A stretch of 32,690 nt of DNA from Alphaproteobacteria bacterium (GTDB lineage: Bacteria > Pseudomonadota > Alphaproteobacteria > Bin95). The stretch is taken from positions 1-32,690 of the forward strand of contig JAJDVH010000120.1 of assembly GCA_022826185.1 (NCBI GenBank), in the 5' to 3' direction. A program made the translations under genes and the position numbers. Under the pieces are notes generated by a model, which was given only the letters and a program-made list of their open reading frames with translations, did not search any database and was not told where the DNA came from. This document shows positions 1,201-32,403 of the stretch, in pieces (within the stretch, counting starts at the first letter, position 1; the number at the start of each line of letters is the position of its first letter).

Positions 1201-2595
1201 TCATCCCCAAAGATTCACGTTCACATTCTTTAGGATGGAATCCGCGCAAAATGCGCACGAGGATTGCCTTTGCCGGATTATCTGCCGTCTCTTGTCGATG
1301 GGATGCCACGGACTTAGGCGCCAATAGTTGAAGTCTCGAGAATGCTCGCCAGCGCTGAGACGCCGTACTACCTCTAATGCCAGCAGAGTGCCCGCTAGTA
1401 CCGATACGAAGGCGAATGGGGCCACGATTCGCCTGCCTTCCGGCGTTTGGAGCTGACCTTCAGCGCATAGCGACTTGAACAACGTGTCGTACGCTATTCC
1501 CACTAAAGTCTCAGGATCAAGTTCGGAATGCATCAGCACGATCCTTTCCGCGGCTGACTCGGAAATGCGCTCCGTTCGCACATCCTCGATTGAGACACCG
1601 AGATGCTGCGCGATATGTTTCTCTCGCGTCATCTCCTCTTCGTCTGCCTCATAAATGCAACTCAGGCAGGCAAGTTCAGTTGGCTGCCTATTGTAGTGCA
1701 CGACTATTTCTCGAATGTCCGTAGTGGAAGAGTCGAACACTTCACCCGGCAATTCATTTTGTAGCTCACGACGAGCCCGTCGACTGTCAACTGAGACAAT
1801 TAGTCTACGTAACCACGGGCCGCTTGACTTCTCGGGCAAATCCTGAAGTCGACACCTATTGGGCACTAGCTTTAGTTTTGGAAAATACCTCTGAGCTCTC
1901 TCCACAATCCTGTCGGCCTTCGGCTTACCAATATCTTCGTTCTCAAACCAGATCTGTCGATTGAGATTACCGGAGCCCACAGTATCGTCATCTGCGATAC
2001 CAAGGCTTCCCTGGAAATTTAGATGACGAGCAGCCCATAGGAATCCATTGCCAATTGCTCCAGCGCCAGCGACATAAGTATGCTCCAAATCGATGGGTTC
2101 CGATACCGCATTCCAATCAATACCTACTTGCCGGAAGTCAAGGGTGAAGGGATTCGGTGGTGCAAACGGTAAAGCGCGGTTCAACGCCCTACTAAGCGTT
2201 ACTGCGGAAGCAAAACATGAAATCAGTAGTGCAAGGATGGGGGGCGTAGATGCGCAGGCCTCCGTGCCGTGTCTTTCCAGACTGATTGTCGCACAGTCCG
2301 GCAAAACCCTTAGAAATACGCGTCTAGCATTAGTCTTGGGCCTTGCAGATCCAATAATGAGTTCGGCTGCGACGTTTCCTAGGCAGGAGTCTTGCGCTAC
2401 TTTACGTACCGTCCTGCGAAGCAGCTCGTATGTCTCATCCCCGATTCGCCTAGCTGTCTCGTTATTTTTCTCGACTGTTATTGCTACTTTTAGGTCAAGT
2501 GCCTCTGACGCATCGGAAACCGATAGACCGAGTGCGGTGGCCAAGGCGGTGGCATTTTCCCGTCGAGCTTCGGGTGTCATGAAATCGTCAGACAT
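1201..2595 (-). CDS. E1-like ubiquitin-activating enzyme (ThiF/MoeB fold)
   Basis: This is a 464-residue protein whose C-terminal two thirds are an E1/ThiF-type adenylation domain. Such enzymes adenylate the C-terminal glycine of a ubiquitin-like protein (Ubl) and usually pass it on as a thioester. Visible landmarks are the Rossmann nucleotide loop GAGAIGNG (about 177-184), the acidic DDD at 202-204, the NLNRQ motif with its arginine at 210-214, and KPKAD at 224-228. Two CxxC pairs, C310/C313 and C447/C450, match the zinc tetrad of MoeB/ThiF. C377 is one candidate transfer cysteine, but I cannot assign it. Residues 1 to about 165 form an N-terminal region I do not recognise. It is the last gene of the operon, and its start overlaps the end of the JAB gene by 19 bp. 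The gene is poorer in GC than the surroundings. A biosynthetic ThiF role is less likely because an E2-like gene is present. Confidence 0.88.
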   Translation of the reverse strand: MSDDFMTPEARRENATALATALGLSVSDASEALDLKVAITVEKNNETARRIGDETYELLRRTVRKVAQDSCLGNVAAELIIGSARPKTNARRVFLRVLPDCATISLERHGTEACASTPPILALLISCFASAVTLSRALNRALPFAPPNPFTLDFRQVGIDWNAVSEPIDLEHTYVAGAGAIGNGFLWAARHLNFQGSLGIADDDTVGSGNLNRQIWFENEDIGKPKADRIVERAQRYFPKLKLVPNRCRLQDLPEKSSGPWLRRLIVSVDSRRARRELQNELPGEVFDSSTTDIREIVVHYNRQPTELACLSCIYEADEEEMTREKHIAQHLGVSIEDVRTERISESAAERIVLMHSELDPETLVGIAYDTLFKSLCAEGQLQTPEGRRIVAPFAFVSVLAGTLLALEVVRRLSAGEHSRDFNYWRLSPWHPIDKRRQIIRQRQSSCAFCADSILKNVNVNLWG

Positions 2596-3041
2596 AACTC
2601 TCTCAAGTCATCTTGTGGCACATGAAGCCAAAATCCGTCCTCCGAAAATCGGTACACCTTGGCAAAATCCAAGAAGGACTCGACTGTCGTACCGAACGCG
2701 AAGTAAGGCAGCACAAGAGAAAGTGCGCCAACGTGGCGGATTATTGCCCAGTCGTCGTCCGCTTTGGAGTGGTATGCGCGGCCTGGATGCGTATGAACTT
2801 GCGCAGCCACCATTTGACGACGATAACGGAGTTCATTGTGAAGAGCCTTCATTCCTTCAGGAGTAATGTGAAACATGTCCGCTTTGGAAATGTGGGGCGG
2901 CTGATACGCGTCCGTAACTTGGATATGGCCCCCCGCTCGTTGTCCCAACCAAAGAACGATGCCCTCGCGCCGTTTCTTGCCTGCTTTTCGCAATAGCGTG
3001 AGGGTCGTGTGAATGACGTCAGAAGGGCAGTCGATGAGCAT
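2577..3041 (-). CDS. JAB/JAMM-family peptidase (deubiquitinase-like)
   Basis: This 154-residue protein is about the size of a minimal MPN+/JAB domain. JAMM metallopeptidases cleave isopeptide or peptide bonds after the glycine tail of ubiquitin-like proteins. The zinc-site signature is present: E26 (in EGIVLWLG), then H83 and H85 in VHTHPG, followed by an S-x-x-D stretch (S92...D95/D96). The fold therefore appears catalytically competent. In this operon it could remove the Ubl from targets or trim its precursor. Since the Ubl already ends in glycines, deconjugation is the better guess. The start codon follows the E2 stop codon immediately, and an AAGGGA Shine-Dalgarno-like stretch lies about 9 nt upstream. 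The 3' end overlaps the E1 gene, which indicates translational coupling. Confidence 0.87.
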   Translation of the reverse strand: MLIDCPSDVIHTTLTLLRKAGKKRREGIVLWLGQRAGGHIQVTDAYQPPHISKADMFHITPEGMKALHNELRYRRQMVAAQVHTHPGRAYHSKADDDWAIIRHVGALSLVLPYFAFGTTVESFLDFAKVYRFSEDGFWLHVPQDDLRELCLTIS

Positions 3042-3479
3042 TCAATCTGTTCCCTTTTGCCAGGCGTTCCATAGTTGAGTGAGGATTCCTCCGAGAGTGT
3101 AGTTCTCTTGGTTCTTCAAATTTTCCCAGAGATCACCAACGTGGCTGGGGTGTGTGTGGTACTCCCGTGCTCCGCGCATGCATACGAAGGGGCGTTGGGT
3201 CGAAGGATGAGGTCCTGGATTGAAGACCCCTGTCGGGTTGGGTGGCAATTGCGAAAGGAAATCCCCGTTGCCCGCGTGCAAAGTGATGGCGGGTGGTAGA
3301 TCATTCCAGTCGTCGCAATGAAGTTGCAACCGAAGGGTGGTGCGGCCGTTAGCCGTGAACGCGCAATCAATGCTTGGAAAATCGATAAGGTGTAAAACCC
3401 AGTCCCGGCGCTCGGCGAGCGCCGGGGTGAGTTTGCGAACCTGCTCCTCAAAGAGCAGCTTGGCCGCTGCAGGGTGCAT
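3042..3479 (-). CDS. E2-like ubiquitin-conjugating protein
   Basis: This 145-residue protein has the order of features expected of a prokaryotic E2/UBC-like domain. A beta-rich first half contains a Pro-rich loop (PPNPTGVFNP, about 79-88). A single cysteine in the PFVC motif (C100) lies where the E2 catalytic cysteine would be expected. A histidine-rich REYHTHPSH stretch (105-113) and a Trp-containing C-terminal helix follow. Other cysteines are C39 and C55. The role inferred is accepting the Ubl thioester from the E1 and transferring it to a target. The HxH segment could alternatively bind a metal or act as a general base. The start overlaps the Ubl stop (TGATG), and the JAB gene follows directly. 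Assignment rests on motif layout plus the Ubl, JAB and E1 neighbours, so the catalytic cysteine is a prediction. Confidence 0.75.
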   Translation of the reverse strand: MHPAAAKLLFEEQVRKLTPALAERRDWVLHLIDFPSIDCAFTANGRTTLRLQLHCDDWNDLPPAITLHAGNGDFLSQLPPNPTGVFNPGPHPSTQRPFVCMRGAREYHTHPSHVGDLWENLKNQENYTLGGILTQLWNAWQKGTD

Positions 3480-3784
3480 CAGCCGCCGCCGCCTTCCTTG
3501 GGGCCCCAGTCGATGTCGACCTGTCCAGAGAGCCGGTTCTCCATGTAGGTCTTCATCGGATCGATCTCTCGCAGGCCTTCTGGACCATTCACATTGGCGA
3601 TCCAGTCGCTCGTTGGCTTGATGTCGAGGTCGCGCGCGGCTTTCTCAAGCTGGAGCTCGACCTTGTCGTCGACCGGGACCTGATCGTACCCCTCGGCCGG
3701 ATAGAACCCTGCCGTGGTGGAGATCGAGACTTCGACGAACTTCTCCGGTACCACGTTAACAACCTGTGGTTCGTTAGCGCTCAT
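3479..3784 (-). CDS. Small ubiquitin-like modifier with Gly4 tail
   Basis: This is a 101-residue protein with a beta-grasp-like pattern: short beta strands (about 7-22), a long amphipathic helix (about 38-52), more strands, and a flexible tail ending in four glycines exactly at the stop codon. A free di-glycine or longer glycine end is the substrate of E1 enzymes, so no processing should be needed. I chose the ATG at 3784 because AGGAG lies 7 nt upstream. An upstream in-frame ATG at 3829 overlaps the predicted -10 box and cannot be in the transcript. The protein has one Ubl domain, unlike BilA of the described BIL antiviral operons, which has two. It may belong to a small Pfam Ubl family such as DUF2604, but I have not checked. 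First gene of the Ubl, E2, JAB, E1 operon. Confidence 0.82.
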   Translation of the reverse strand: MSANEPQVVNVVPEKFVEVSISTTAGFYPAEGYDQVPVDDKVELQLEKAARDLDIKPTSDWIANVNGPEGLREIDPMKTYMENRLSGQVDIDWGPKEGGGG

Positions 3785-3828: not shown

Positions 3829-3857
3829 CATATAATGGCCACTGAATACAGTATCAA
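3829..3857 (-). promoter_or_regulatory. Promoter of the ubiquitin-like operon
   Basis: On the minus strand TTGATA (3857-3852) is followed after exactly 17 bp by TATATG (3834-3829), a good sigma-70-type match. Transcription would start near 3822 and give a leader of about 38 nt before the Ubl ATG at 3784. The dyad ACTGAATACAGT (3841-3852) and one GGCCATT-type half-site lie in the spacer, so a bound repressor would block this promoter. Confidence 0.6.
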
Positions 3858-3873
3858 GGGCCATTTGATGGCC
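3834..3873. promoter_or_regulatory. Repeat-rich operator between two divergent operons
   Basis: AATGGCC (3834-3840) is repeated in inverted orientation as GGCCATT (3859-3865) and again in direct orientation as ATGGCC (3868-3873). Between the first two copies lies the 12-bp dyad ACTGAATACAGT (3841-3852). The block sits between the two outward promoters. The first plus-strand gene encodes a ribbon-helix-helix protein, and that family usually binds short repeated half-sites in its own promoter. It is therefore the natural candidate ligand, with the XRE protein as an alternative. Confidence 0.5.
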
Positions 3874-3881
3874 GCCCCCTA

Positions 3882-3910
3882 TTGCATTGGTGGGCCGGAA
3901 AGCCTATATG
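3882..3910 (+). promoter_or_regulatory. Promoter of the RHH-GNAT-XRE-ImmA operon
   Basis: TTGCAT (3882-3887), a 17-bp spacer and TATATG (3905-3910) form a sigma-70-like promoter. The predicted start near 3917 leaves a leader of about 21 nt before the ATG at 3938, with the strong ribosome site GGAGGAA at 3923-3929. This placement rules out the in-frame ATG at 3887 as the start of the first gene. Confidence 0.55.
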
Positions 3911-3937: not shown

Positions 3938-4147
3938 ATGGACCGGAGGCAGATGACGCTCATGCTGAGCGATAAGGAAATGAATTTACTAGATAATTTG
4001 GCCTCGCACCGAAACATGTCGAAGACGGCCTTGGTGCGACAGGCCCTTCGCCTTTACCAATCGGTGACGGAGCGAATCGAGAACGGCGAGAAGGTATTCG
4101 TGGAGGATCCCGGCACCAAAGCCAAGACCGAGCTGATGGTCCTATGA
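3938..4147 (+). CDS. Ribbon-helix-helix (CopG-like) DNA-binding protein
   Basis: This is a 69-residue protein with an RHH pattern: a short strand (QMTLMLS), a helix with NLLDNLASH, then MSKTALVRQAL and a second helix. Such proteins bind DNA as dimers and are often the antitoxin/autorepressor in toxin-antitoxin pairs. I use the ATG at 3938, which has GGAGGAA 8 nt upstream. A longer frame from 3887 would begin upstream of the predicted transcript. The stop overlaps the start of the GNAT gene by 4 bp (ATGA), so the two are translationally coupled. This arrangement matches RHH-GNAT pairs such as TacA-TacT, although the GNAT here is longer. The repeats at 3834-3873 are a plausible binding site. 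Confidence 0.75.
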   Translation: MDRRQMTLMLSDKEMNLLDNLASHRNMSKTALVRQALRLYQSVTERIENGEKVFVEDPGTKAKTELMVL

Positions 4148-4719
4148 AGGAGCACGTCCGCCAGGTCGAGCTTCTCAATCGAGCATCAGGGGAGTTCGAG
4201 CCAGCGGACGTGTTCCAAGAGTTGGACGACAAGAACTTCGACGACTTCGATCAGCTATGGAAGCCGGGGTTTTCCAGCCCCGCGCCGGATTCGCACTGGG
4301 ACTGGGTAGCTAAGGCGAGGCACGCGGTCTCCTCGATGGCTTTGGAAACCTTCGCCCTTGAGTGCGCCGAACATACGCAGGGTTTGATGCTCGTGAACTT
4401 AGCCTCATTCGCCAAGCTGGACAGCCAGCGAGGCCGTGATCTCGTCTACGTCGAGTTGCTTGCCACCGCACCCTGGAACAGGTCAACACCATCCCAAGCC
4501 GGGAAATATAAGGGCGTCGGCCGCGTTTTAATTGCAACTGCTATTCATTTGAGCATTGAACAAGGCTTTGGCGGAAGAATTGGTCTGCATTCTTTGCCCA
4601 CATCCCAAAGTTGGTACAGGGTCACACTCGGTCTCACTGATTGCGGCTACGATGTGGCAAAAGACATGCACTACTTTGAAATGACAGACCAACAGGCCCA
4701 AGTCTTCTTCGCAACATGA
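4144..4719 (+). CDS. GNAT-family acetyltransferase
   Basis: This 191-residue protein has a C-terminal half resembling a Gcn5-related N-acetyltransferase. The strand VYVELLATAP (101-110) precedes the acetyl-CoA loop KYKGVGRVL (121-129, the Q/R-x-x-G-x-G/A motif), a helix IATAIHLSIEQ, then LHSLPTSQSWYR and a GLTDCG turn typical of GNAT motif B. The substrate is unknown. RHH-GNAT toxins acetylate aminoacyl-tRNA, and the 4-bp overlaps with both neighbours make a toxin role plausible. However, it is longer than TacT-type toxins (about 160-175 residues), and its first 90 residues look unrelated to them. A metabolic or protein acetylase cannot be excluded. Its end overlaps the next start at 4716. 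Confidence 0.68.
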   Translation: MKEHVRQVELLNRASGEFEPADVFQELDDKNFDDFDQLWKPGFSSPAPDSHWDWVAKARHAVSSMALETFALECAEHTQGLMLVNLASFAKLDSQRGRDLVYVELLATAPWNRSTPSQAGKYKGVGRVLIATAIHLSIEQGFGGRIGLHSLPTSQSWYRVTLGLTDCGYDVAKDMHYFEMTDQQAQVFFAT

Positions 4720-5258
4720 CCAACGGGAGATCTGTCATGAAGACGTTGTTCACGCAGGAATGGCTTCGCCGAAAGATCGAGTCCGATCCCGATGTCGACG
4801 TGGAAGCTGGACCTACCTTAGACGACTGGGCTCTCCTCGCAGATTTTGGCGAAGAGAGTATCGAAAACACAAATCTTGCGACCATCAGGGAACGACATGT
4901 CGTTCCCCTACGCATGTCGCTAGGCTTGCTTGTACGCCAATTGCGCATGAGAGATGGCTTGACGGTGGAAGCGCTAGCCCTCAAGGCGAGCGTTTCCGAA
5001 GAGGAATTGAACCAAGTTGAGCACAACCCAAACTACACGGCACGTCCAAGATTGATTCACAATTTATCCGAATATTTTGACGTACAGCTAGAATACCTTT
5101 CGCAATTGGCCGGCGCCACGCACAAGGTCGATCGACAACTGTATAATACAGCCGTGCGGTATGCAGCAAAGTCAGATGAAGCGGCGGTACTAACTCAACA
5201 ACAAAAGGAAATTCTTGCCGGATTTGTCTCTTTGTTGAACGAGCGTCGCGGATCATGA
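4716..5258 (+). CDS. XRE-family helix-turn-helix protein
   Basis: This 180-residue protein carries a Cro/cI-type HTH at about residues 68-133. RQLRMRDGLTVEALALKASV and SEEELNQVE mark the first helices, and FDVQLEYLSQLAG is the usual end of such a domain. The N-terminal 65 residues are acidic and unassigned. The ATG at 4716 overlaps the GNAT stop by 4 bp. An ATG at 4737 with GGGAG upstream is an equally possible start and would remove seven residues. The gene lies directly before an ImmA/IrrE-type peptidase. In phages, ICEs and TA-like modules that pairing usually means a repressor whose activity is removed by the peptidase. Codon use is clearly less GC-rich than in the flanking DNA. Confidence 0.75.
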   Translation: MTNGRSVMKTLFTQEWLRRKIESDPDVDVEAGPTLDDWALLADFGEESIENTNLATIRERHVVPLRMSLGLLVRQLRMRDGLTVEALALKASVSEEELNQVEHNPNYTARPRLIHNLSEYFDVQLEYLSQLAGATHKVDRQLYNTAVRYAAKSDEAAVLTQQQKEILAGFVSLLNERRGS

Positions 5259-5261
5259 ACA

Positions 5262-6191
5262 ATGAGTGACGCATTGCCAGACGAACTTGAGAGACATGAT
5301 ATCCGGAAGCAAGTAAACCGTATTCTGCGGGATCTTGGAAATCCTGAACCTCCAATCAAACTGGCGGACGTGCGCTCGCTCCTGTCACTCGACCTACAAT
5401 ACTACAGCAGCTCTGATCCAGGGTTGGTATCGGAATTGACGCACCGTTTTCAGCTGATAGCAAAGAAAACTATTCCCGATCTGGGAAGACATTTGCAATT
5501 GGCACTTTCCAAGTCAAAACTTTGTGCGTTTTGGGTTCCAGCGCTCTCAAGAATCATGCTTGATGGCGATGTTCCTGAACCGAAGCATCGTTGGATTGAG
5601 GCGCATGAGATCATTCACAGCGTAATCCCGTGGCACAAGAATTTCCTATTGGGGGATAACGCACAGACGTTGGATCCTACGTGCCACGCAGTCCTTGAGG
5701 CTGAGGCAAACTATGGAGCAGGTCGATTATTGTTTCTCGATGAAAAATTTAATGCGGAAGCTAAGGATTTAGATCTGTCATTCAAGTCAATTAAGCTTCT
5801 ACAAAAACGGTACGCAAACTCTATTGTTTCTACGTTTTGGCGAATTGTCGAGGATAGAAACCCCCTTGATCCAGTTTTTGGAATGGTCAGTATACATCCC
5901 CACTATGCAGACGTTGGAAGTCATGACGGTCCGAACCCTTGGAGATACTTTATACGATCAGAGGCGTTTGCGCGGCAATTTTCGAGAATTTCATCGGAAA
6001 CCGTGTATGAATTGGTCAGGTCGCACGCCAGTCGGCGAAAAGCGGGACCAATATTTGCTGCACAAGACACAATTATTGATGATCGTGGGGAAGAGTGGGA
6101 AGTCGAACTAGAGTGTTTCTCGACTACCCATGCGGTACTCACTCTCGGGTACACCATCAAGGAGCGGCCGGTAGTAGTTCAAGTGAGCTAA
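5262..6191 (+). CDS. ImmA/IrrE-family metallopeptidase
   Basis: This 309-residue protein has a zinc-peptidase signature: HEIIH at 115-119 in RWIEAHEIIH, and a downstream EAEANYGAGRLLF segment (148-160) that supplies the third ligand in COG2856 proteins. ImmA cleaves the ICEBs1 repressor ImmR, and IrrE/PprI cleaves DdrO after DNA damage. By analogy this enzyme could inactivate the XRE protein encoded 3 bp upstream. The C-terminal 150 residues have no assignment I can make and may sense a signal. It is the last gene of the plus-strand operon. If the XRE or RHH protein also controls the facing ubiquitin-like operon, the peptidase would be the trigger for it. That link is inference. Confidence 0.8.
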   Translation: MSDALPDELERHDIRKQVNRILRDLGNPEPPIKLADVRSLLSLDLQYYSSSDPGLVSELTHRFQLIAKKTIPDLGRHLQLALSKSKLCAFWVPALSRIMLDGDVPEPKHRWIEAHEIIHSVIPWHKNFLLGDNAQTLDPTCHAVLEAEANYGAGRLLFLDEKFNAEAKDLDLSFKSIKLLQKRYANSIVSTFWRIVEDRNPLDPVFGMVSIHPHYADVGSHDGPNPWRYFIRSEAFARQFSRISSETVYELVRSHASRRKAGPIFAAQDTIIDDRGEEWEVELECFSTTHAVLTLGYTIKERPVVVQVS

Positions 6192-6655: not shown

Positions 6656-7258
6656 ATGACAGGGGACGATCAACTCCGGGAAAAGCTCGCCAGGATGGAG
6701 GCGTTGTTCCGGCGGGCCGGCAGTCCGGGGAAGCAGGCGGCAACTGGGGCCGCAATGGACCGGCTGCGCAACCGCCTCGATGGTCCGAACCTTGATGGCG
6801 GACCGGAGACGGAACTCCAGTTCTCGCTGCCCGACATGTGGTCGGTCAGGCTGTTCGTCGCCGTCTGCCGCAAGTACGGCCTGCGTTCCTTCCGCTACGC
6901 GCGGCAGCGGCGGACGACCGTCATGGTGCGCGCCCGCGAGCGGCATTTCGACCGCGTGGTATGGGCCGAGTTCAGCCGGCTTCAGACCGAGCTGCAATTT
7001 TATTTCGAAGACGTTACCGACCACCTGATTACTCGTGCGGCGATAGCCGTCGAAAACGACTTATACGGCTTCCACAATCACGCGGCCGCGTCCCCGGCGG
7101 ACGACGTAACCGCCCCGCCGGATCGAGAGCTTGCCGTCCTGTATCAGGCCCCACAAGGCATCGGAGATGGCCTTTGCATTCTCGTCCTCCTCCGGTTCCG
7201 CGACCGCCTGTTGCAGCCACTTCGCGAACGCTTCGTCGGCAATGGCCGTACCTACTGA
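6656..7258 (+). CDS. Plasmid-type hypothetical protein, 3' end doubtful
   Basis: The first 126 or so residues look like a real protein. A helical start (REKLARMEALFRRAGSPG), reminiscent of DUF2786-like openings, is followed by a conserved-looking core with SLPDMWSVRLFVAVCRKYG, a basic RQRRTTVMVRARE strand and FDRVVWAEFSRLQTEL. I recall similar proteins on alphaproteobacterial plasmids but know no function. After about residue 126 (position 7034) the frame runs antisense through the gene at 7061-7396 and loses any protein-like character. I infer a lost stop codon or a frameshift near 7035-7060, so the true product may be about 130 residues. No strong ribosome site precedes the ATG. Confidence 0.5.
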   Translation: MTGDDQLREKLARMEALFRRAGSPGKQAATGAAMDRLRNRLDGPNLDGGPETELQFSLPDMWSVRLFVAVCRKYGLRSFRYARQRRTTVMVRARERHFDRVVWAEFSRLQTELQFYFEDVTDHLITRAAIAVENDLYGFHNHAAASPADDVTAPPDRELAVLYQAPQGIGDGLCILVLLRFRDRLLQPLRERFVGNGRTY

Positions 7259-7396
7259 TTTGCGGAGGGCGGCGAGTTTTCGTAACTGGCCCTTGGTCAG
7301 GGCGGATTCGTCGAACATCCGGGAGAACTCCCTTAGCTGTCTTTCGGGTTGCGCCGGCAGAATAACGGCCGCAAGCATGGCTTCGCCCTGTGTCAA
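7061..7396 (-). CDS. Small conserved hypothetical protein
   Basis: This 111-residue protein has a helix-rich middle (LTKGQLRKLAALRKSVG, EAFAKWLQQAV), an acidic EPEEDEN loop and a basic end, IRRGGYVVRRGRGRVIVE. The final segment looks like a beta-rich, nucleic-acid-binding tail. I recall similar small proteins beside relaxase genes in alphaproteobacteria, but no function is known to me. It lies upstream-to-downstream with the relaxase on the same strand, 133 bp after it. A shorter start at 7378 is possible. It converges with, and overlaps, the doubtful 3' part of the gene at 6656. Confidence 0.6.
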   Translation of the reverse strand: MTQGEAMLAAVILPAQPERQLREFSRMFDESALTKGQLRKLAALRKSVGTAIADEAFAKWLQQAVAEPEEDENAKAISDALWGLIQDGKLSIRRGGYVVRRGRGRVIVEAV

Positions 7397-7529
7397 TTGT
7401 CGCGCCGGTCGGCTGTCCTTTGCCGAGCGCTTGGCGACAGGGACATCCCGTCGTTCCGCTCTCCCTGCCGGGGAACGATTGCAGGCGCAGCAAGCCTTGC
7501 GGAGGCGTATTCCGCAACGCTCGCCGCGC

Positions 7530-10500
7530 CTAGAGTTTTATCCCGCCGCCCTCGCTCCGCTCCTGCCTGCGTTCCTCTTCGAGCCTGAGGCGCTCGGCTT
7601 CCGCAAGCGCCTGTTCCTCCGCCAGCCGCTGCCGTTCGGCGGCGCGGGCTTCCTCGTCCTCGCGCAGCCGTTCGGCGATCTTCGCGGCATACTCGTCGAT
7701 GGCGTCGGGCCTGGCGTCGGCGGCGTCGAGATGGGCCTTCAGTTCCCCTTCCGGAATGTCCCGCCTGAGCGCGTCCGCCTCGGCAAGCACATCATCGGCG
7801 TCCTGCTTCCACGCCTCGGGTGTTAGCGGCAGCCCCATCGGCGCCCGGAATTCGGGAGGCAGGCCGTCCATGCGGTCGCGGTCATTGAGCCGCTTGCGCG
7901 CCAGGTCGAGGAACGCCTTGACGCGGGCCCGGCCCCTTGCCAGGCGCCCGCGTTCCACCGGATCGGCGTGTTCGGCCGTGCCGGACGCGACGGCGCCGGT
8001 CGGTTCGGCCGCCTGTCCGACGAGCTCCTGAAGGTAGTCGGCCTGCGCCGCCCCGATTTCGGCCAGCGCATTTTCGATCTGGTCGGCAGCCTCCACCAGC
8101 GCCTTGCGCTCCTCTGGCATGGCGGCCAGGTGGGGCGCATGCGGGCTTTCCTCCGCCAGCATGGCGCGGGCCTCGGCGAGCAGCGGCTCAGCCCTGTCGC
8201 GCCAGCGCAGCATCGGCCAGATGCTCTCGCCGAGCCCGGGCCGCTCGCCGAGGAGCGCATCGGCGCGCGCCGGCCAGTCCCGGACCTCCCGGCGGAGCTG
8301 TTCGCACCGGGCGTCATAACGGGGCCAGTCTCCAACGGCCCGCCTCCGGTCTTCATCGAGGCCTTCTTCCCCGAAGAGCGAACGGGCATGGGCCACCGTC
8401 TCCGGGTAGCGGGGCGCATAGTACCACACGGTTCCCGCCTCCCTCGCCTTGCCGGTGACATGCCGCGTCAGCCATGCGAACCGCCGGTAGCGGTCGTCCA
8501 GGATGGCGGCGTCGATCTCCGCAAGCGCCGCGGCGACCGCGTTCCGCGCGCCCGGCATGGCGTTCATGTGGTGGCCGTGCGGACCCTCCGCCTCCAGCAT
8601 GCCGGCGGCCTCGTTCCGGAGCGCGTCGCCCTCCTCGCGCCAGGCGTGGCAGGCGGGATCGACCGGATCGGCGCCACCATGTTCGTCGAGCGGCAGGTCC
8701 GTCTCCCGCCGCGCCCGCCATGCCGCCGTGCGCGCCGGCAGGGAGCGGATGGCGCCGGCCAGCGCCGTCTGCCGGTCATGGACCGTCAGCCAGTCGTCCA
8801 CCAGGCGCCGGTCGGCCGGGTCGAGGCCCTCGGCTTCCGCGAGCCGCCCGGCCAGTGCAGCGAGCGCGATGCAGCCCTTCAGATGCAGCTCCGGTACGCC
8901 CTCGCGGACGGCGCTCGCGCCGAGCACCGTCCGGTCCCGCCGGAACCGTTCGCAGTCGTCGCAGAGCCGCATGCGCTCCAGCGCCGCAGCCTCGCCCTCG
9001 AGCCCGCCGGCCATGCCCGGCACGGCGTCCATGTCGTACGCCTCGTCCAGCAGCGCCGCGCCTTCCTCGCGCCATGCGGCATGTTCCGGCAGGTCCTGCC
9101 GCGCGCAGCCCCGCGCCGAGGCGATCCAGCCGAGCTCCGGCCAGCGCCGCCAGTGCGCCCGGAGGCGGTCGGCATGGCTCCGCACGTCCCGCTCATGCGC
9201 GGCATGACGTTCATGCTCCGCCAGCATGCCGTCCACGAAGGCGCGCATGTCCGCCGGCAGCTCCTCCACGAGGGAGAGCACCGCCGCCCGCGCCATGACG
9301 TCATCCGCGCCCGGCAGCAGGAACGGCGGCATACCGGTCTCCTCGCCCCGCCGCTGCAACGCACGCCAGTCCGCCGCGAGCGCCTCGAACAGTTCCGGCT
9401 CGACGACAGGCATCACGGCCGGGTCGAGCCCCAGCGCCTCCAGCGCGCCGTCCTCGCGGTCGGGGCGCGCCTCCAGCATCTCCACCAGCGCCTCGCGGTC
9501 GTCGGTCAGCAGTTGGAACGACTCCGAGGCCCGGCTGACCTCGACATGGAACATGGCCTGGTCGACGGCGCCATGCGCGTCCAGCACTGCGATGACGGTC
9601 CTGGCGGTGCGGCCCTGGGCGCCATGCACGGTCGAGCAGTATGCATGGTCCAGGTGGCGAAGCTGGGGGTCCTTGCGCCGGAGCGGGAACGTCCGGCCGG
9701 CCTCGTCGCGGAACAGCACCCGCTGGCGGTCGATGTCGACGATCTCCGCCTCGCCGCCGTTTACAAGGTCCGGCTGGCGGGGATGGCCGAACCTGGCGGG
9801 CGGGGCCTTGCGGTTGCGGGTCCAGCGGATGCGGTCGCCGGCCCTGACCTCGATCCGCTCCGTGTCGTAGAGCCCGAGATATGTGGCGGCATTGCCCGAG
9901 GGCCGGAACCGGCGCTCGCCGCCGTCCGGGCCTTCCAGCACCACATGCCCGTCCTCCGCGCCCATGACCGTGCAGACATCGCCCGCAAGGCAGCCGAAGG
10001 TGCTGCGGTGGAAGACGATGGTGTCGCCCGGCTCGTAGCTCCTTATGTCGGAGGCCTGCGCGCGCGTCAGGCGGCGGTCCACGAGGCGGTCGATGGCGAG
10101 CGCCCGCCCGTGCAGCAGTCCCTCCGCCTCAAGCCCCTCGCGCACGGTGTCGCTGACCTGCCGGCGGATCGTATGGGTCGGCGCCAGGATGAGCGCGTCG
10201 GCGCGGTCTTCGGGAGGCAGGTCGAGCCAGCGCCGGCCCGCCTCCGGCCCCAGCGCCTCGCGGGGATATTCGCTCACCCGCGGGCCGAGTTCCCCGATCG
10301 CGGCGCCCGGCTCGCCCGCGCGGGCGCGGCCCGACGCTTTCTTCAGCTCCGGGTCCCTCTGGCGCAGCACCTCGTCCATGACCGCCGTCGCCATGCCAGC
10401 CTTCTGCAGCACCCGGAAGGGCTGGCCGGCATCCACGGCGCGCAGCTGCGCCGTATCGCCCACCAGCGCCACCCGGGCGACGCCGAGCGAGCGCGCGATG

Positions 10501-12287
10501 CGCAGCAGCGCCTCCATGCGCACCGTGTCGATCATCGAGGCCTCGTCCACCGCCAGCACCGCGCCCCCGAACTCCGCCCGCGCCCGCGCCAGCCGTGCCG
10601 GGTCGGAGAGGTCCCCATGGCGGGTGAGGAACCATTGCAGGGTGCGCGACGGGATGCCCGCCTCGCGCGCCAGCACCCGGGCAGCGGAGGCGGAGGGCGC
10701 GAGGCCGAGGATGGTTCTGCCGCCGAGCAGGTCCTTCACGGTGCGCAGCATGGTGGTCTTGCCGCTACCGGCATGGCCCTGCACGCCCACGATCCGGTCC
10801 CGGGAGAGCAGGATCGTCCTGACCGCCTCCTTCTGGCCTTCGGTCAGCCCGCTCTCCAGGAGGCTGACCTCGACCGCGACCGGCACGGCCTGCGCCTGTC
10901 CCCGGTCCCGCTCCGCGCGCAGCGCCGCCAGCATGCGCCGCTCGGTCTTCACGGCGCGGTCGGTGACGAAGGCCCGGTCCGCGCCCCGGCTCTGCGTCTC
11001 CACCAGCTCGCCGCTGCGCACCAGGCGCGCGACGGCGGCATCGACCTCGGCCAGCGTATGGCGCCCCGGCGCATGGCCGAGCGCGACGGCCCGGATCTCC
11101 GCCTCCGGGATGCGCACCCGCCGTTCCTCCACATGCGCCACCGCCCGCGCGACGGCTTCCAGAAGGCCCGGTTCGGGCTCGTATGAGAGTTTCGCCCGTG
11201 CCGTGGCGCGCGCGAGCCGCAGGGACGCCTTGTCCGCCCGGACCGCCGCCGCGTCGCGCGCCAGCTTCGGCAGGGCCGGGGCGCGCTGGCGCTTGCGCCG
11301 CTCGTTCGCCGGCAGGGTGGAGGCCGGCATGCGCGGCGCGGCGCTCCGCTCTCCGGTCAGCGGGTCCAGCGGCCGGGGCGGCGAGAGCTCCGCCTTGTCG
11401 CGCACGAGGCCGAGTTCGCGAACCCGCGCGCGCCATTCCGGCACGAGGTCCGCCAGGCTCTCCTCGGTCTTGCGCCTGCGGGTGCGCAGCGCCGCCGCCT
11501 GCGCGTTCCTCGCCGTCAGGGACAGGTTCCTGCGCTTCAGGTCCGCCTCGATCGCCAGCCGCCGGGCCGAGAACGCCTCGACGAACTCGCGCGGGTAGCC
11601 CGCAAGCTCGAAGCCCGGGATGCGTCCGACCAGCCTTGGCGCGACCGCCATGCCGAGCGCCTCCAGCCGCCGGGCCAGCTCGTTGCGGTAATACGCCCCG
11701 ACCAGCTTCACGTTCCATTTGACGGCCGTCGGCTCGACGCTCCGCCACTGGCCCGAGGCATTGCGCGTCATGTTGGCCAGCACGCAGTGGGTGTGCAGCG
11801 TCGGGTCACGGTCGCGGCTGGTCAGGTGCCGGAACCCCGCAACGACCATGCCGCCCGCCTTCACCCGCGGGCGCCGCCTCGTCGCCGGGTCCCAGCCCCG
11901 CGTCTGCAGCAGGTCCCGCTCCACCCAGTCCAGGGTGGCGCGCACCGCCTCGTCATGCGCCCGGATCACCCGCCGGTCGCCCATCACCAGCGCCTCGATC
12001 GACACCGACTTCGGCGCCGAGAGGGTGAGGTCCCAGCCGGGACGGTGATCGTGCTCGCCCTCGCGCTTGCGCCCGAGCCGGATGTCCGTCCCCGGCACGA
12101 ACCCCGCCAGCACCGACTCGAACCGCTTCGGGCGCACATGGCCCCCGAGACCCAGCGCGCTCGCCGCCTCCCCGTGCCAGAAGCTCGCCTGCCGGTGCTC
12201 CGGGTCGTTCCGCGCGTAGTAGCCGTCCCGCTCGAAATAGGACACGACGACAGCGGAGGAGTTGAGTTCGACGAAGGTCGCGACCAC
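7530..12287 (-). CDS. MobF-family conjugative relaxase-helicase
   Basis: This 1585-residue protein nicks oriT DNA and unwinds it during conjugation. Residues 1 to about 300 are a TrwC/TraI-type relaxase: candidate nucleophile tyrosines Y17, Y23 and Y24 near the N-terminus, and the metal-binding histidine triad in FRHLTSRDRDPTLHTHCV. Residues of about 450-950 are a superfamily 1 helicase, with Walker A GHAGSGKTT near 500, the DEAS Walker B-type motif, and CSTVHGAQGRT near 885. The last 600 residues are unusual: W-R-x-E-G-x-x-L-L-x-E-A-like units recur near residues 1070, 1215, 1360 and 1490, ending in a charged coiled coil. The gene follows a membrane-anchored accessory protein in the same direction. 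No coupling protein or T4SS genes are visible, so the element may be mobilisable or continue outside the window. Confidence 0.92.
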   Translation of the reverse strand: MVATFVELNSSAVVVSYFERDGYYARNDPEHRQASFWHGEAASALGLGGHVRPKRFESVLAGFVPGTDIRLGRKREGEHDHRPGWDLTLSAPKSVSIEALVMGDRRVIRAHDEAVRATLDWVERDLLQTRGWDPATRRRPRVKAGGMVVAGFRHLTSRDRDPTLHTHCVLANMTRNASGQWRSVEPTAVKWNVKLVGAYYRNELARRLEALGMAVAPRLVGRIPGFELAGYPREFVEAFSARRLAIEADLKRRNLSLTARNAQAAALRTRRRKTEESLADLVPEWRARVRELGLVRDKAELSPPRPLDPLTGERSAAPRMPASTLPANERRKRQRAPALPKLARDAAAVRADKASLRLARATARAKLSYEPEPGLLEAVARAVAHVEERRVRIPEAEIRAVALGHAPGRHTLAEVDAAVARLVRSGELVETQSRGADRAFVTDRAVKTERRMLAALRAERDRGQAQAVPVAVEVSLLESGLTEGQKEAVRTILLSRDRIVGVQGHAGSGKTTMLRTVKDLLGGRTILGLAPSASAARVLAREAGIPSRTLQWFLTRHGDLSDPARLARARAEFGGAVLAVDEASMIDTVRMEALLRIARSLGVARVALVGDTAQLRAVDAGQPFRVLQKAGMATAVMDEVLRQRDPELKKASGRARAGEPGAAIGELGPRVSEYPREALGPEAGRRWLDLPPEDRADALILAPTHTIRRQVSDTVREGLEAEGLLHGRALAIDRLVDRRLTRAQASDIRSYEPGDTIVFHRSTFGCLAGDVCTVMGAEDGHVVLEGPDGGERRFRPSGNAATYLGLYDTERIEVRAGDRIRWTRNRKAPPARFGHPRQPDLVNGGEAEIVDIDRQRVLFRDEAGRTFPLRRKDPQLRHLDHAYCSTVHGAQGRTARTVIAVLDAHGAVDQAMFHVEVSRASESFQLLTDDREALVEMLEARPDREDGALEALGLDPAVMPVVEPELFEALAADWRALQRRGEETGMPPFLLPGADDVMARAAVLSLVEELPADMRAFVDGMLAEHERHAAHERDVRSHADRLRAHWRRWPELGWIASARGCARQDLPEHAAWREEGAALLDEAYDMDAVPGMAGGLEGEAAALERMRLCDDCERFRRDRTVLGASAVREGVPELHLKGCIALAALAGRLAEAEGLDPADRRLVDDWLTVHDRQTALAGAIRSLPARTAAWRARRETDLPLDEHGGADPVDPACHAWREEGDALRNEAAGMLEAEGPHGHHMNAMPGARNAVAAALAEIDAAILDDRYRRFAWLTRHVTGKAREAGTVWYYAPRYPETVAHARSLFGEEGLDEDRRRAVGDWPRYDARCEQLRREVRDWPARADALLGERPGLGESIWPMLRWRDRAEPLLAEARAMLAEESPHAPHLAAMPEERKALVEAADQIENALAEIGAAQADYLQELVGQAAEPTGAVASGTAEHADPVERGRLARGRARVKAFLDLARKRLNDRDRMDGLPPEFRAPMGLPLTPEAWKQDADDVLAEADALRRDIPEGELKAHLDAADARPDAIDEYAAKIAERLREDEEARAAERQRLAEEQALAEAERLRLEEERRQERSEGGGIKL

Positions 12288-22311: not shown

Positions 22312-23202
22312 ATGGCGCAAGAACCGTTTGAAGACGATCCAGAGACGCCGCGCTACCTCACGACGAAGGAAGTGGCGGCGCTGCTGCGCGTGAGGGAGCG
22401 CAAGGTGTACGACCTCGCCGCTGCCGGCGGGATTCCGTACAGGCGGATCACAGGGAAGCTGCTCTTCCCGCGCACGGAAATCCTGGCGTGGATCGAGGGA
22501 GGCGGCGGCGCCGAATCTCCGGAACGGCCGGAGGTGCTCACCGGCTCGCATGACCCGCTTCTCGACTGGGCCGTGCGCGAGTCCGGCTCGGGTCTGGCGA
22601 CGCTCTGGAACGGCAGCCTCGACGGCCTGGACTCTTTCGCCGCCGGCCGCGCCGCGCTTGCCGGGCTGCATATCCCGGAGGAGGCGGACTGGAATGTCCG
22701 GACTGTTGCCGCCCGAGGCATGCGCGGCTCGGTACTGATCGCCTGGGTTACGCGGGCTCGCGGCCTCGTCCTGTCCGGGCGCGCAGGCGAAGAGGTTCGC
22801 TGCATTTCCGATCTCAGGGGCAGGCGGATCGCGATGCGCCAACCGGGCGCCGGGGCGACGGCGCTTTTTGACAAGCTTCTGTCGAAGGAAGGGCTTGCAA
22901 CGACGGACCTGATCCCGTCGGCGGAGCTGGCGCGAACTGAGAGCGACGCGGCGGCAGCCGTGGCCGCGGGAGAGGCGGAGGCGGCGCTGGGCATCGAGGC
23001 AATGGCCCGGCAGTTTCATTTGCCGTTCCTGCCTCTGGTCCGGGAGCGGTTCGACCTGCTGATCGACCGGCGGGCCTACTTTACCGACCGGGTGCAGATG
23101 CTGATGGCCTTTGCGCGCGGCGATGCGCTGAGGCGCAAGGCCGACGCCATGGGAGGCTACGACCTGTCGGAAACCGGTCATGTGCGATGGCTTTCACCAT
23201 GA
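22312..23202 (+). CDS. HTH and periplasmic-binding-like transcription regulator
   Basis: This 296-residue cytoplasmic protein has two parts. Residues of about 15-65 are an excisionase/MerR-like HTH (YLTTKEVAALLRVRERKVYD, then GIPYRRITGKLLFPRTEILAW). Residues of about 80-290 are a periplasmic-binding-protein-like domain without a signal peptide (GSHDPLLDWA, SLDGLDSFAAGRAALAGLHI, LRGRRIAMRQPGAGATALFD). Proteins of this design (HTH_17 plus PBP_like) commonly accompany molybdate or tungstate transport or molybdoenzyme genes, and the binding domain probably senses the oxyanion. The gene converges with the importer ATPase gene, overlapping it by 25 bp. The start at 22312 fits the domain, but an ATG at 22273 is possible. 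Target promoters cannot be read from the sequence. Confidence 0.8.
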   Translation: MAQEPFEDDPETPRYLTTKEVAALLRVRERKVYDLAAAGGIPYRRITGKLLFPRTEILAWIEGGGGAESPERPEVLTGSHDPLLDWAVRESGSGLATLWNGSLDGLDSFAAGRAALAGLHIPEEADWNVRTVAARGMRGSVLIAWVTRARGLVLSGRAGEEVRCISDLRGRRIAMRQPGAGATALFDKLLSKEGLATTDLIPSAELARTESDAAAAVAAGEAEAALGIEAMARQFHLPFLPLVRERFDLLIDRRAYFTDRVQMLMAFARGDALRRKADAMGGYDLSETGHVRWLSP

Positions 23203-23978
23203 CGCGCGAGAGACGGCAGGCACACCGTCCTGCCGTCCGCCAACCGCTCCACGCGCACGTCGATCTGGTAGGCCGCCGACAGCGTGTCTCCGGTAAGGGC
23301 GGCGTCCGGCGTGCCGGTCGCGCGCACGCGGCCGTCATGGAGCAGGGCGACATCCGTCCCGACGGCGAACGCATGGTCCGGGTCGTGAGTCGACAGGATG
23401 ACCGTGAGGCCGTCGGCGGCCAGTCCCGCGATCTCGCGCAGCACCAGCGCCTGGTTGCCGAAATCGAGGCTGGCTGTGGGTTCGTCCATGATGAGCACCG
23501 GCGTTTCCTGAGCCAGCGCCCGCGCGACCAGCACAAGCTGGCGCTGGCCTCCGGAGAGCCGGGTGTAGTCGGCGTCGGCCAATTCGTCGATGCGCAAGCG
23601 GGCCAGCGCGCGCCGCGCGGCCTCCCGGTCGGCTTCGCCCGGCTGGGAGAATAGCCCGAGCCGAGCCGTCCTGCCCATCAGGACGACTTCGAACGCTGAC
23701 CAGGCGAAGGGCGGTGCATGGGCCTGCGGCACATAGGCGACACGACGTGCAATCTCGGCCCGCGAGAGGTGGTCGAGCGGCTGGCCTTCCAGAAGCACTC
23801 GTCCTCCCCGCGCCGGAATAAGCCCCAATTGGGTCTTGAAGAGCGTGGTCTTGCCGGAGCCGTTGGGGCCGAGCAGGCAGAGCACCGCGCCCGGCCCGGC
23901 CGCCAGCGTTATTCCCGACCCGACCTCGTGGCCGGGATAGCCGATCGCCAGGTCCTGGGTTTCGATCGTCATGCCCAT
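23178..23978 (-). CDS. Type II ABC importer ATPase (MolC/BtuD-like)
   Basis: This 266-residue nucleotide-binding subunit has every motif intact: Walker A GPNGSGKTT (about 38-46), signature LSGGQRQ, Walker B VLIMDEPTASLD and the switch histidine in STHDPDHA. Spacing and sequence (PQAHAPPFAWSAFEVVLMGR) are typical of FecE/BtuD-type partners of FecCD permeases. The start overlaps the permease stop by 10 bp, and a second ATG at 23972 could also serve. It is the last gene of a run that also includes TupABC, which suggests an oxyanion such as molybdate or tungstate, as for MolABC of Haemophilus influenzae. An iron-chelate or cobalamin substrate remains possible from sequence alone. Confidence 0.88.
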   Translation of the reverse strand: MGMTIETQDLAIGYPGHEVGSGITLAAGPGAVLCLLGPNGSGKTTLFKTQLGLIPARGGRVLLEGQPLDHLSRAEIARRVAYVPQAHAPPFAWSAFEVVLMGRTARLGLFSQPGEADREAARRALARLRIDELADADYTRLSGGQRQLVLVARALAQETPVLIMDEPTASLDFGNQALVLREIAGLAADGLTVILSTHDPDHAFAVGTDVALLHDGRVRATGTPDAALTGDTLSAAYQIDVRVERLADGRTVCLPSLARHGESHRT

Positions 23979-24982
23979 GCGCGCCGGCCCCGTGCAAGCA
24001 GCCAGAGAAAGAACGGCGCGCCCACCACCGCCGTCAGAATGCCGAGCGGAACCTCTGCGCCCGAGATCGTGCGCGCCAGCGTATCGACCGCAAGCATGTA
24101 ACCCGCTCCGAGCAGCGCGGCGGCCGGCAGGAGCCGCCCGAAGCCGGGACCGACGATCATGCGGGCGATATGCGGGATCACCAGACCGACCCAGCCGACG
24201 ACACCTGCGACCGCGACGACACTGGCCGTGATGAGCGTGGCGCAGACAATGACGATGAGGCGGAGCCGGGCGGCCTCGACGCCGAGCGCGCGGGCTTCTT
24301 CGTCACCAAGCGCCAAAACATTGATCCTCCAGCGCAGCAACGCCAGCGGCACGAGGCCGGCTGCCACGACCGGAGCCGCGGGAAAGAGGTCTGCGGTCTT
24401 CACCCCGGCGAGGCTGCCGAGGAGCCAGAAGGTGATCGCGGGCAGCTGGTCGTAGGGATCGGCCAGCACTTTCAGCAGCGATGTCGCCGCCCCGGCGAGC
24501 GCGCCGACCACCACGCCTGCGAGCACAAGTATCAGGGTGCGGTCGCCCGTTTGGACGGCAGCCGCAACGAAACCGACCAACAGGACCGCCCCGAGCCCGC
24601 CGGCGAATCCCAGTAGTTGGACCGCCACGACCGGCAGCGACAGGAAGATCCCGAGTACGGCGCCGAGCCCCGCTCCGGCCGACACGCCGAGAATGTCGGG
24701 CGACACGAGCGGATTGCGGAACAACGTCTGATAGCAGGCGCCCGCCGCTGCAAGCGCCGCCCCGACCAGAAGCGACGCCGCCACTCTCGGAAGCCTGATC
24801 GCCAGCAGCACGGTTTCGGCCTGGTCCGTGCTTTCGCGCCCCGTCAGCACCGATATCGCTTCAACGAATCCGAGCGGGTAGGGCCCGATCAGGAGCGCGG
24901 CGAGGCTGCAGAGGACCAGCGCTCCGGTGAGCCAGAGCGCAGTGCCGGTTCCCGCTCCCGCGCGGTAGCGAGCGGATTTCAA
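23969..24982 (-). CDS. Type II ABC importer permease (FecCD/MolB-like)
   Basis: This permease of about 337 residues has some ten hydrophobic segments. It carries family stretches such as RLPRVAASLLVGAALAAAGA, YQTLFRNPLVSPDILGVSAG and GLVIPHIARMIVG, the standard marks of FecCD/BtuC proteins. I start it at a TTG at 24982, because TTGA then overlaps the stop of the binding-protein gene exactly as ATGA overlaps do, and the length becomes normal. A longer ATG frame from 25126 would add 48 Arg-rich residues that overlap the preceding gene. It is inferred to form the channel with the ATPase at 23178 and to take substrate from the binding protein at 24979. Confidence 0.88.
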   Translation of the reverse strand: MKSARYRAGAGTGTALWLTGALVLCSLAALLIGPYPLGFVEAISVLTGRESTDQAETVLLAIRLPRVAASLLVGAALAAAGACYQTLFRNPLVSPDILGVSAGAGLGAVLGIFLSLPVVAVQLLGFAGGLGAVLLVGFVAAAVQTGDRTLILVLAGVVVGALAGAATSLLKVLADPYDQLPAITFWLLGSLAGVKTADLFPAAPVVAAGLVPLALLRWRINVLALGDEEARALGVEAARLRLIVIVCATLITASVVAVAGVVGWVGLVIPHIARMIVGPGFGRLLPAAALLGAGYMLAVDTLARTISGAEVPLGILTAVVGAPFFLWLLARGRRAWA

Positions 24983-26016
24983 GGCGCGCGTCCGCCCGCC
25001 CACTCCAGCAGCCGGTTCAGCTCGGCTTCTCCCAGATCGACATGGTACCAGAGCTTGTAGAAGGCGTGCGTTTCGCCTCGCAGGTCGCCCGGCCACAGGT
25101 CGGGATAGAAGAGGCCGGCGAGCCATTTCAGGCCCATCATCCGGTTGATCGACGGCGGTCGGTCGATCCAGCCGAACGGCGCGGTGGGCGAAAGATAGAC
25201 CCGGCCCCGGCGGACCGCCGCGATCCCCTGCCAGAGCGGGTCCTTCCAGACGCGGTCGTAGAAGATCCGGTCCCAGGTGACGATGGTGTCGGGATCCGCA
25301 ACGATCACCTGCTCGGGCGAGGCCTGCACGAGCCCGTACTGCCCCGGCACATCGGCCACGTTCCGTCCGCCTGCGAGCTCGATGATCTCGGTATTGATGG
25401 ATCCCTTCAGCCCCGTCTCGAGCCCGTCCGGGCCGCGGGCGAGATAGACGCGGGGGCGCTGCTTTTGGGGCACAGCGCCGAGCGCAGCCCGGAGTTCGGC
25501 GAATGTCGCTTCCACATCCGCCGCGAGCCTTTCCCCGCGGTCGGGGACTCCGAGCGCCGCGCCCAGCAGGCGGAGCGAAGCGGCCGTTTCCGAGAAGCGC
25601 CCGTTGATGAGGATGTAAGGGATGCCGGTCTGTTCCTGGACCCGGTTTGCCAGGTCGATATAGGTGTCCCGCACCGACCCGAAATCGACGATGAGGTCGG
25701 GCCTCAGCACGATCACCCGCTCAAGGTTTGCGTCTCCGCCGCGCCCGGTAACGCGCCCGGTTTCGGGAAGATCGCGCCAGGGCTGGGCGATGTAGGGTTT
25801 CTCGTAGTCCCGAAGCCTGCGCGGCCAGCCGAGCAGCGCCTCGGGCTTCAGCGCATAGACCAGGATCGAGGCCGGCGGCCCGGCCGCGAAGACCCGCTCC
25901 ACGCGGTCCGGAATCTCCACGACCCTCCCGGCGGAGTCCCGGACGGTGCGCGCATCGCCCGGCGCGGCGAGGCCGGCCAGGGCAATCGCCAGCAGGAACC
26001 GCATAACCCCTTTCAT
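24979..26016 (-). CDS. Type II importer periplasmic binding protein (MolA/BtuF-like)
   Basis: This 345-residue protein has a cleavable-looking signal peptide (MRFLLAIALAGLAAPGDA) without a lipobox cysteine, so it should be periplasmic. The fold markers are those of FhuD/BtuF-type proteins: RVERVFAAGPPASILVYALK, ERVIVLRPDLIVDFG and FGWIDRPPSINRMMGLKWLA. The start at 26016 has GGAGA 7 nt upstream; an ATG at 26004 is weaker. The gene lies 58 bp downstream of tupA on the same strand. I infer molybdate or tungstate binding from the neighbourhood and the precedent of MolA. The family itself also includes siderophore, haem and cobalamin binders, so the ligand is uncertain. Confidence 0.8.
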   Translation of the reverse strand: MKGVMRFLLAIALAGLAAPGDARTVRDSAGRVVEIPDRVERVFAAGPPASILVYALKPEALLGWPRRLRDYEKPYIAQPWRDLPETGRVTGRGGDANLERVIVLRPDLIVDFGSVRDTYIDLANRVQEQTGIPYILINGRFSETAASLRLLGAALGVPDRGERLAADVEATFAELRAALGAVPQKQRPRVYLARGPDGLETGLKGSINTEIIELAGGRNVADVPGQYGLVQASPEQVIVADPDTIVTWDRIFYDRVWKDPLWQGIAAVRRGRVYLSPTAPFGWIDRPPSINRMMGLKWLAGLFYPDLWPGDLRGETHAFYKLWYHVDLGEAELNRLLEWAGGRAP

Positions 26017-29731: not shown

Positions 29732-30817
29732 TCAGGCACCGCCCACGCCCTCCGGGGCGATGGCGACGGTCTTGATGACGGCATGGCACGCCATGCCCTC
29801 CTCCAGCCCCAGCGCCTCGGTCGAACGGCGGGTGGAGCGCGAGAGGATCGTGCCGGCCGCCGTGCGGACGGAAACGATGGCGCCCGGCCCCTCGCCCGCC
29901 CGGACCGATTCGACCGTGCCCGGCAGGATGTTCAGCGCGGACAGGCCTTCCGGCTCTCCTCTGGACAGCAGCACCTCATGCGCCGCGATCCGGACCCGGA
30001 TCCGGCTGCCGGGCGCATGCGGCACGCTCGGCAGGAACAGGCGCACGCCGCCGGCCTCGATCTCCGACAGCCCGTCGGCATGGTGGCGCACGACGGCCGC
30101 TTCGAGCACCGCGCCCGCGCCGCGCGCGCCGAGCGGCGTGACCGTCGGATCGCCCAGCACCTCGACCGCCGGCCCCTGGCGCAGCACGCGCCCGTCCTGG
30201 AGCGCGATCACCGTGGTTGCGAGCCGCGCCACCTCCGCCGCCGAGTGGCTGACATAGAGCACCGGCACCGACACCTCGTCGCGCAAGCGCTCGAAATAGG
30301 GCAGGATTTCCGCCTTCCGCGCTTCGTCCAGCGAGGCCAGCGGCTCGTCGGCGAGGATCAGCCGGGGGCTCGCCAGCAGGGCGCGGCCGATTGCGACCCG
30401 CTGCTTCTCGCCGCTCGACAGCGCGCCGGGGCGCCGGCCCAGCAGATGCCCGATGCCGAGCATGTCGACGATGCGCCCCAAATCCTCGCGCGGCCCGTTC
30501 CTCGGCGCGAACCAGCGGCCGTATTTCAGGTTCTGGCCCACGGTAAGATGCGGAAACAGCCGCCCCTCCTGGAAGATGTAGCCGAGCCGGCGCCGGTGGG
30601 CGGGAAGCCAGGCGCCGCGCTCCGTGTCGAACAGCACCCAGCCGTCCGCGACCGCGCGCCCGGCCTCGGGCCTGAGAAGCCCTGCGACGGCGTTGACGGT
30701 CGTCGTCTTGCCGGAGCCGGAGCGGCCGAAGAGCACGGTGACGCCCGGCGGTGCCTCGAAGGAAATGTCGAGTTCGAAGCCGGGGAAGGCATGGCGGATG
30801 GCGACGGACAGCGTCAT
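29732..30817 (-). CDS. Molybdate importer ATPase ModC
   Basis: This 361-residue protein has the normal ModC length. An ABC domain (Walker A GRSGSGKTT near 30-38, signature LSSGEKQR, Walker B LILADEPLASLD, switch histidine in VSHSAAE) is followed by a C-terminal MOP/TOBE molybdate-binding domain (about 290-355, LSALNILPGTV and GMACHAVIKTVAI). The Walker A surroundings and SSGEKQR signature are typical ModC. The ATG at 30817 overlaps the modB stop by 4 bp. A frame that continues upstream runs through modB and modA in another frame and is not coding. Confidence 0.94.
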   Translation of the reverse strand: MTLSVAIRHAFPGFELDISFEAPPGVTVLFGRSGSGKTTTVNAVAGLLRPEAGRAVADGWVLFDTERGAWLPAHRRRLGYIFQEGRLFPHLTVGQNLKYGRWFAPRNGPREDLGRIVDMLGIGHLLGRRPGALSSGEKQRVAIGRALLASPRLILADEPLASLDEARKAEILPYFERLRDEVSVPVLYVSHSAAEVARLATTVIALQDGRVLRQGPAVEVLGDPTVTPLGARGAGAVLEAAVVRHHADGLSEIEAGGVRLFLPSVPHAPGSRIRVRIAAHEVLLSRGEPEGLSALNILPGTVESVRAGEGPGAIVSVRTAAGTILSRSTRRSTEALGLEEGMACHAVIKTVAIAPEGVGGA

Positions 30818-31506: not shown

Positions 31507-31515
31507 GGCGCGATT

Positions 31516-32304: not shown

Positions 32305-32403
32305 ATGCGGCGCTCCCCGGCGGCCCTGCCAATTGGCCCTTTTTCCACCGGCCCGGCAAGGCGTCGCCGTGCAGGAGGACCCCCTGCGAAACGTCATGAA
32401 TTG

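Follow-up and report, generated by a model that had tools for sequence, protein, structure and literature searches.

A predicted divergent BIL operon with a single-domain modifier, and the four-gene cassette that probably controls it

The locus

The stretch of DNA described here, 'the window', comprises 32,690 nt of contig JAJDVH010000120.1 from an Alphaproteobacteria bacterium (GCA_022826185.1), and is plasmid-like. A four-gene operon occupies positions 3784-1201 on the minus strand and encodes, in order, a ubiquitin-like modifier (Ubl), an E2, a JAMM peptidase (JAB) and an E1. The genes are closely coupled: the Ubl stop and the E2 start have one base in common (TGATG), the E2 and JAB genes abut, and the JAB and E1 genes overlap by 19 nt. 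An initial annotation placed this operon correctly, without giving its strand, and took it to be a bacterial ubiquitin-like conjugation system. Divergent from it, at 3938-6191, lies a cassette of four further genes, encoding a ribbon-helix-helix protein (RHH), a GNAT acetyltransferase, a helix-turn-helix regulator (HTH) and an M78 metalloprotease. This is the distinct regulatory operon that the initial annotation mentioned in passing; its pairing with the conjugation operon is the most informative part of the locus.

The conjugation enzymes

A 2006 study predicted operons that combine genes for an E1, a JAB, an E2-like protein and a Ubl (PMC1779556), and the CEHH residues of BilB and Cys417 of BilD have been described in a review (PMC11354881). 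The E2 of the window (3479-3042, minus strand; 145 aa) matches Pfam Metal_CEHH (6.6e-8), and its best match among solved structures is BilB (8tyz_C; 8.7e-5 with the single sequence, 4.5e-10 with a profile). Its residues C100, E106, H108 and H113, noticed earlier as an E2-like cysteine and histidine motif, have the same spacing as C138, E144, H146 and H151 of BilB, and homology to that solved protein predicts a UBC fold. The JAMM peptidase (3041-2577, minus strand; 154 aa) matches Pfam Prok-JAB weakly, the PADLOC BilC model at 8.5e-16, and, best among solved structures, BilC (8tyx_B; 3.7e-18). HxH (83 and 85), S92 and D95 are intact, in keeping with the metal ligands noted in the initial annotation, and E26 aligns opposite the catalytic E33 of BilC, which is mutated to Ala in 8tyx. 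The E1 (2595-1201, minus strand; 464 aa) contains the Pfam E1-N and ThiF domains, each at about 1e-16, and matches PADLOC BilD (6.5e-8). Its best solved relative is BilD (8tyz_A; 5.9e-14), and C377 lies opposite the catalytic C417. Five homologues retain unchanged the nucleotide loop (GxGxxGN) and arginine motif (N-x-x-R) named in the initial annotation, as well as the CxxC pairs. The HMM searches that the annotation had proposed returned Metal_CEHH, a weak Prok-JAB, BilC and BilD.

ThiF-type E1 enzymes and JAMM proteins are also known from pathways of sulfur-carrier or cofactor biosynthesis, and the E1 weakly matches ThiF/MoeB models, so a ThiS/ThiF-like biosynthetic set has to be weighed against conjugation. 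Every NCBIfam ThiF/MoeB score falls far below its cut-off, however, the E2 has an intact CEHH motif, an E1-N domain is present, and the best structural relatives are BIL enzymes; the biosynthetic set is so improbable that we reject it. The conjugation chemistry, as judged by homology to BilB, BilC and BilD, is very probably that of a BIL system.

The modifier

The modifier (3784-3479, minus strand; 101 aa) has homologues in 24 loci. A search of solved structures with its sequence profile gave no match, and fold comparison was used instead. AlphaFold2 predicts a beta-grasp (pLDDT 82) whose GGGG tail is disordered, and the Foldseek matches of this model include the Ubl domains of BilA (8tyx_A and 8tyz_B), NEDD8 and SUMO. 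The C-terminus reads GPKEGGGG, in agreement with the earlier description of a beta-grasp-like protein ending in four glycines.

In two respects this protein departs from characterised BilA. It has one Ubl domain rather than two; two domains are a feature of characterised BilA and are not known to be required across the family, and one to three have been reported for BIL and Bub modifiers in published surveys. And, whereas characterised BIL modifiers are trimmed before use, that of the window stops at GGGG with no tail to remove, so that the JAMM enzyme would not be needed for maturation here. Among the loci surveyed, single-domain modifiers occur in the six that carry the cassette (the window included) and in L005, L011, L012 and L028; more than one domain is found in L003 (Multi_ubiq) and, as judged by longer proteins, in the remaining loci. 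The modifier ends exactly at GGGG in the six cassette loci, and has one to five extra residues in 16 other distinct loci (Fisher p = 1.3e-5, in a test that ignores shared descent).

Individual modifiers vary further. The proteins of L008, L010 and L029 are extended at the N-terminus by roughly 40-55 residues that resemble a charged coiled coil, an extension absent from the window copy. In B. barranii (L002/L007; L002 7580-8125), the GGGG end lies in a different frame from the start of the modifier, and the gene is annotated through the frame change; this copy is frameshifted or misread.

Relationship to BIL and other conjugation operons

A genome scan with the single E2 sequence gave zero matches; relatives were reached with an alignment of E2 as query, and L003 and L005 were added from plasmid records. 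All 24 homologous loci fetched by the scan keep the order Ubl-E2-JAB-E1, which answers the neighbourhood survey proposed with the initial annotation and shows that the arrangement did not arise by chance. No relatives of the operon were found in viral contigs. The six loci that carry the cassette group in the E1 tree: they lie on one side of a branch, apart from the other labelled group, in 200/200 bootstrap trees, although the fork that unites these six alone, out of all rows, is supported at 88/89 and drawn open.

BIL (bacterial ISG15-like) systems are anti-phage, and virion proteins have been reported as their targets. The window operon resembles them in gene order, in the CEHH motif of the E2, in the catalytic Glu of the JAMM enzyme, and in the E1-N and adenylation domains and catalytic Cys of the E1. 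It differs in its modifier and in its control cassette, and overall identity is low. Because its three enzymes have BilB, BilC and BilD as their closest solved relatives, we classify it, by homology, as a divergent BIL operon and not a separate system. The initial annotation had preferred a separate variant on account of the single Ubl domain. That reading is not supported: each of the three enzymes is specifically related to its BIL counterpart (BilB, BilC or BilD), and single- and multi-Ubl forms are mixed within one enzyme family. Two other known systems were considered and rejected. Type II CBASS has a nucleotide cyclase, the E2 and E1 fused in Cap2, and Cap3, whereas here E2 and E1 are separate, and the operon contains no nucleotide cyclase, as the initial annotation had stated; Bub, annotated in the plasmid loci as a multiubiquitin-E1-DUF6527 set, was set aside, there being no DUF6527 protein in the operon and the enzymes matching BIL. 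The likeness to Bub and CBASS lies outside the operon, in that relatives of the window's cassette and promoter adjoin operons of both kinds.

The wider BIL family has other neighbours. The BIL operons with multi-domain modifiers that the scan reached (L004 and L014-L023; near-copies L024-L027 and L030) are divergent from a pair of genes for an Xre antitoxin and a RES-domain toxin, and ten distinct loci of this kind group together in the E1 tree. L003 is paired with a WYL-domain regulator, and L005, L011 and L013 with HTH and M78 genes, without RHH-GNAT. An operon and cassette 58% identical to those of the window (L008) occur in a metagenome-assembled genome labelled Marinimicrobia, by horizontal transfer or binning error.

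The control cassette

The RHH protein (3938-4147, plus strand; 69 aa) matches Pfam RHH_1/CopG (3.7e-5) and not DUF1778; homologues favour the conserved start MDRRQMT at 3938 over a TTG at 3887. Its gene overlaps by 4 nt that of the GNAT-fold acetyltransferase (4144-4719, plus strand), whose AlphaFold2 model (pLDDT 78.5, pTM 0.81) has GNAT matches in Foldseek at 1e-5, NatD and the AtaT toxin among them, and whose homologues are annotated GNAT. The HTH regulator (4716-5258, plus strand; start possibly 4737) matches Pfam HTH_3, PADLOC HTH_VI (3.6e-7) and, with a weak score, capH (7.8e-4). The M78 (ImmA/IrrE-type) metalloprotease (5262-6191, plus strand) matches PADLOC capP (4.2e-9), and in alignment its HEIIH and EAEAN motifs are intact; it gave no sequence match among solved structures.

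The last two genes thus have the hallmark of CapH+CapP, an HTH protein and an M78 metalloprotease with HExxH encoded divergently beside an immune operon. Control of immune operons by CapH+CapP, including Bub, is published: the pair responds to single-stranded DNA, and CapW or CapH+CapP adjoins 219 of 544 Bub operons (PMC13373217). The window differs in that RHH and GNAT genes precede the pair, neither of which is mentioned in that paper, and in the linked, recurrent palindromic promoter. A literature search, to which the key BIL, Bub and CapH/CapP papers were external, found no description of the four-gene cassette.

When the M78 protein was looked for in sets of 385 and 397 genomes, each survey turned up only two matches, of which one came from the query or centre itself, and plasmid records were used for the cassette neighbourhoods thereafter. 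Six cassettes accompany BIL operons. Nine are divergent from Bub-type operons (L032, L033, L035, L037-L039 and L041-L043), L033, an unannotated record, being assigned by a Ubl match and a ThiF-domain protein; three are divergent from CBASS operons (L034, L036 and L040). Two lie beside a convergent Bub-type operon (L044 and L048), and two have no clear partner (L031, next to Cas9, and L047, in which M78 is broken). These figures are counts, not frequencies, the loci having been picked by similarity to the cassette, mostly from plasmids. In L043, an annotated anti-phage dCTP deaminase (7040-8665) lies directly beyond the Bub-paired cassette.

An RHH gene overlapping, and followed by, a GNAT gene is also the usual layout of type II toxin-antitoxin pairs (TacAT, AtaRT and KacAT), and the pair might be just that, an independent module that stabilises a plasmid and merely neighbours the operon. 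The 4-nt overlap, the AtaT match and the many cassette loci on plasmids are in keeping with this. The cassette nevertheless keeps all four genes in one unvarying order next to defence operons of three kinds, and the palindromes described below fall on the defence promoter; we consider an independent pair unlikely. The window's RHH protein, moreover, is CopG/RHH_1 and not DUF1778 as in those pairs, its gene and the GNAT gene are joined into a defence-linked cassette, and a toxin role for the GNAT is putative.

The shared divergent promoter

Between the defence operon and the RHH gene lies a promoter, TTGAC-N17-TATAT, overlapped by palindromes of sequence TAGCTA or TGGCCA, which lie roughly a helical turn apart in regions that retain several. 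In the window, the predicted bil promoter is TTGATA-N17-TATATG (3829-3857, minus strand), with TGGCCA at 3836-3841, just before the -10. Upstream of the -35, an operator-like inverted repeat, GGCCATTTGATGGCC (3859-3873), is a further candidate site. Allowing up to two mismatches, this promoter has a single match in the 4.48-Mb genome (control, 0), and it aligns with the promoters of 15 other cassette loci. TRGCYA sites number 33 in 16 such regions, against 3.5 expected from 500 dinucleotide shuffles (sd 1.8, maximum 9), a descriptive comparison, as the motif was picked after inspecting the same regions. Their density is 13.8 per kb in 21 regions and 0.59 per kb elsewhere. L009, L010 and L029 have fewer clean palindromes.

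Since the BIL, Bub-type and CBASS operons are made up of different genes, the similarity of their promoters travels with the cassette, although recent common ancestry of the cassettes may account for part of it. BIL loci combine TGGCCA-type sites with the RHH strand RRQMTL(M/I)L, and Bub and CBASS loci combine TAGCTA sites with KKTMTLNL or near variants. This covariation hints that the RHH protein reads the palindromes; with two groups only, it may instead reflect descent in two lineages.

Function and significance

Computation shows that the parts are present and conserved and that the promoter is shared. These observations are best explained, with a probability of roughly 0.8, by a BIL operon under a portable control cassette. 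By analogy with BIL, the E1 would adenylate the Ubl at its exposed Gly-Gly terminus, load it onto C377 and pass it to C100 of the E2, which would attach it to target proteins; the JAMM enzyme would remove it again. Those targets are probably phage virion proteins, as for BIL. The same enzymes might instead modify host proteins in a general stress response; published work notes that phage defence has yet to be demonstrated for Bub operons under similar control (PMC13373217). Their specific kinship with the anti-phage BIL enzymes, and the occurrence of cassette relatives beside CBASS, make a stress response distinctly improbable.

The cassette most likely acts through the palindromic operators to hold the BIL operon repressed, and lifts this repression when DNA is damaged. 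RHH, the CapH-like HTH protein, or both, would bind the palindromes that overlap the promoter and keep expression low. DNA damage during infection, which the cassette somewhat more probably than not senses, would activate the CapP-like protease, and cleavage of the HTH repressor would then release transcription. The GNAT, paired with RHH, could tune the repressor or act as a toxin-like partner; we infer both this role and the identity of the palindrome-binding protein. More tentatively, RHH-GNAT-CapH-CapP and its palindromic divergent promoter could form a self-contained, swappable control module common to BIL, Bub and CBASS; an acetyltransferase partner, acting as a toxin or by modifying a signal, would then be part of the circuit that induces protein conjugation and cyclic-nucleotide immunity.

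What is known here is the conjugation system, with the ordinary chemistry of a diverged BIL operon; what is new is the control region and the minimal modifier. With one Ubl domain and no maturation step, the operon offers a minimal BIL in which to ask what a bacterial ubiquitin-like tag needs. The cassette, whose four genes bring a promoter design of their own and have been joined to immune operons of at least three types, makes it testable whether one sensor controls unrelated defences, and what part an acetyltransferase plays in this.

Elsewhere in the window, a TrwC-type relaxase with a helicase domain is encoded at 7530-12287, and the contig resembles a mobilisable element. A FecCD-type permease, ABC ATPases and a periplasmic binding protein, encoded at 23178-26016 and 29732-32407, probably serve metal or ion uptake.
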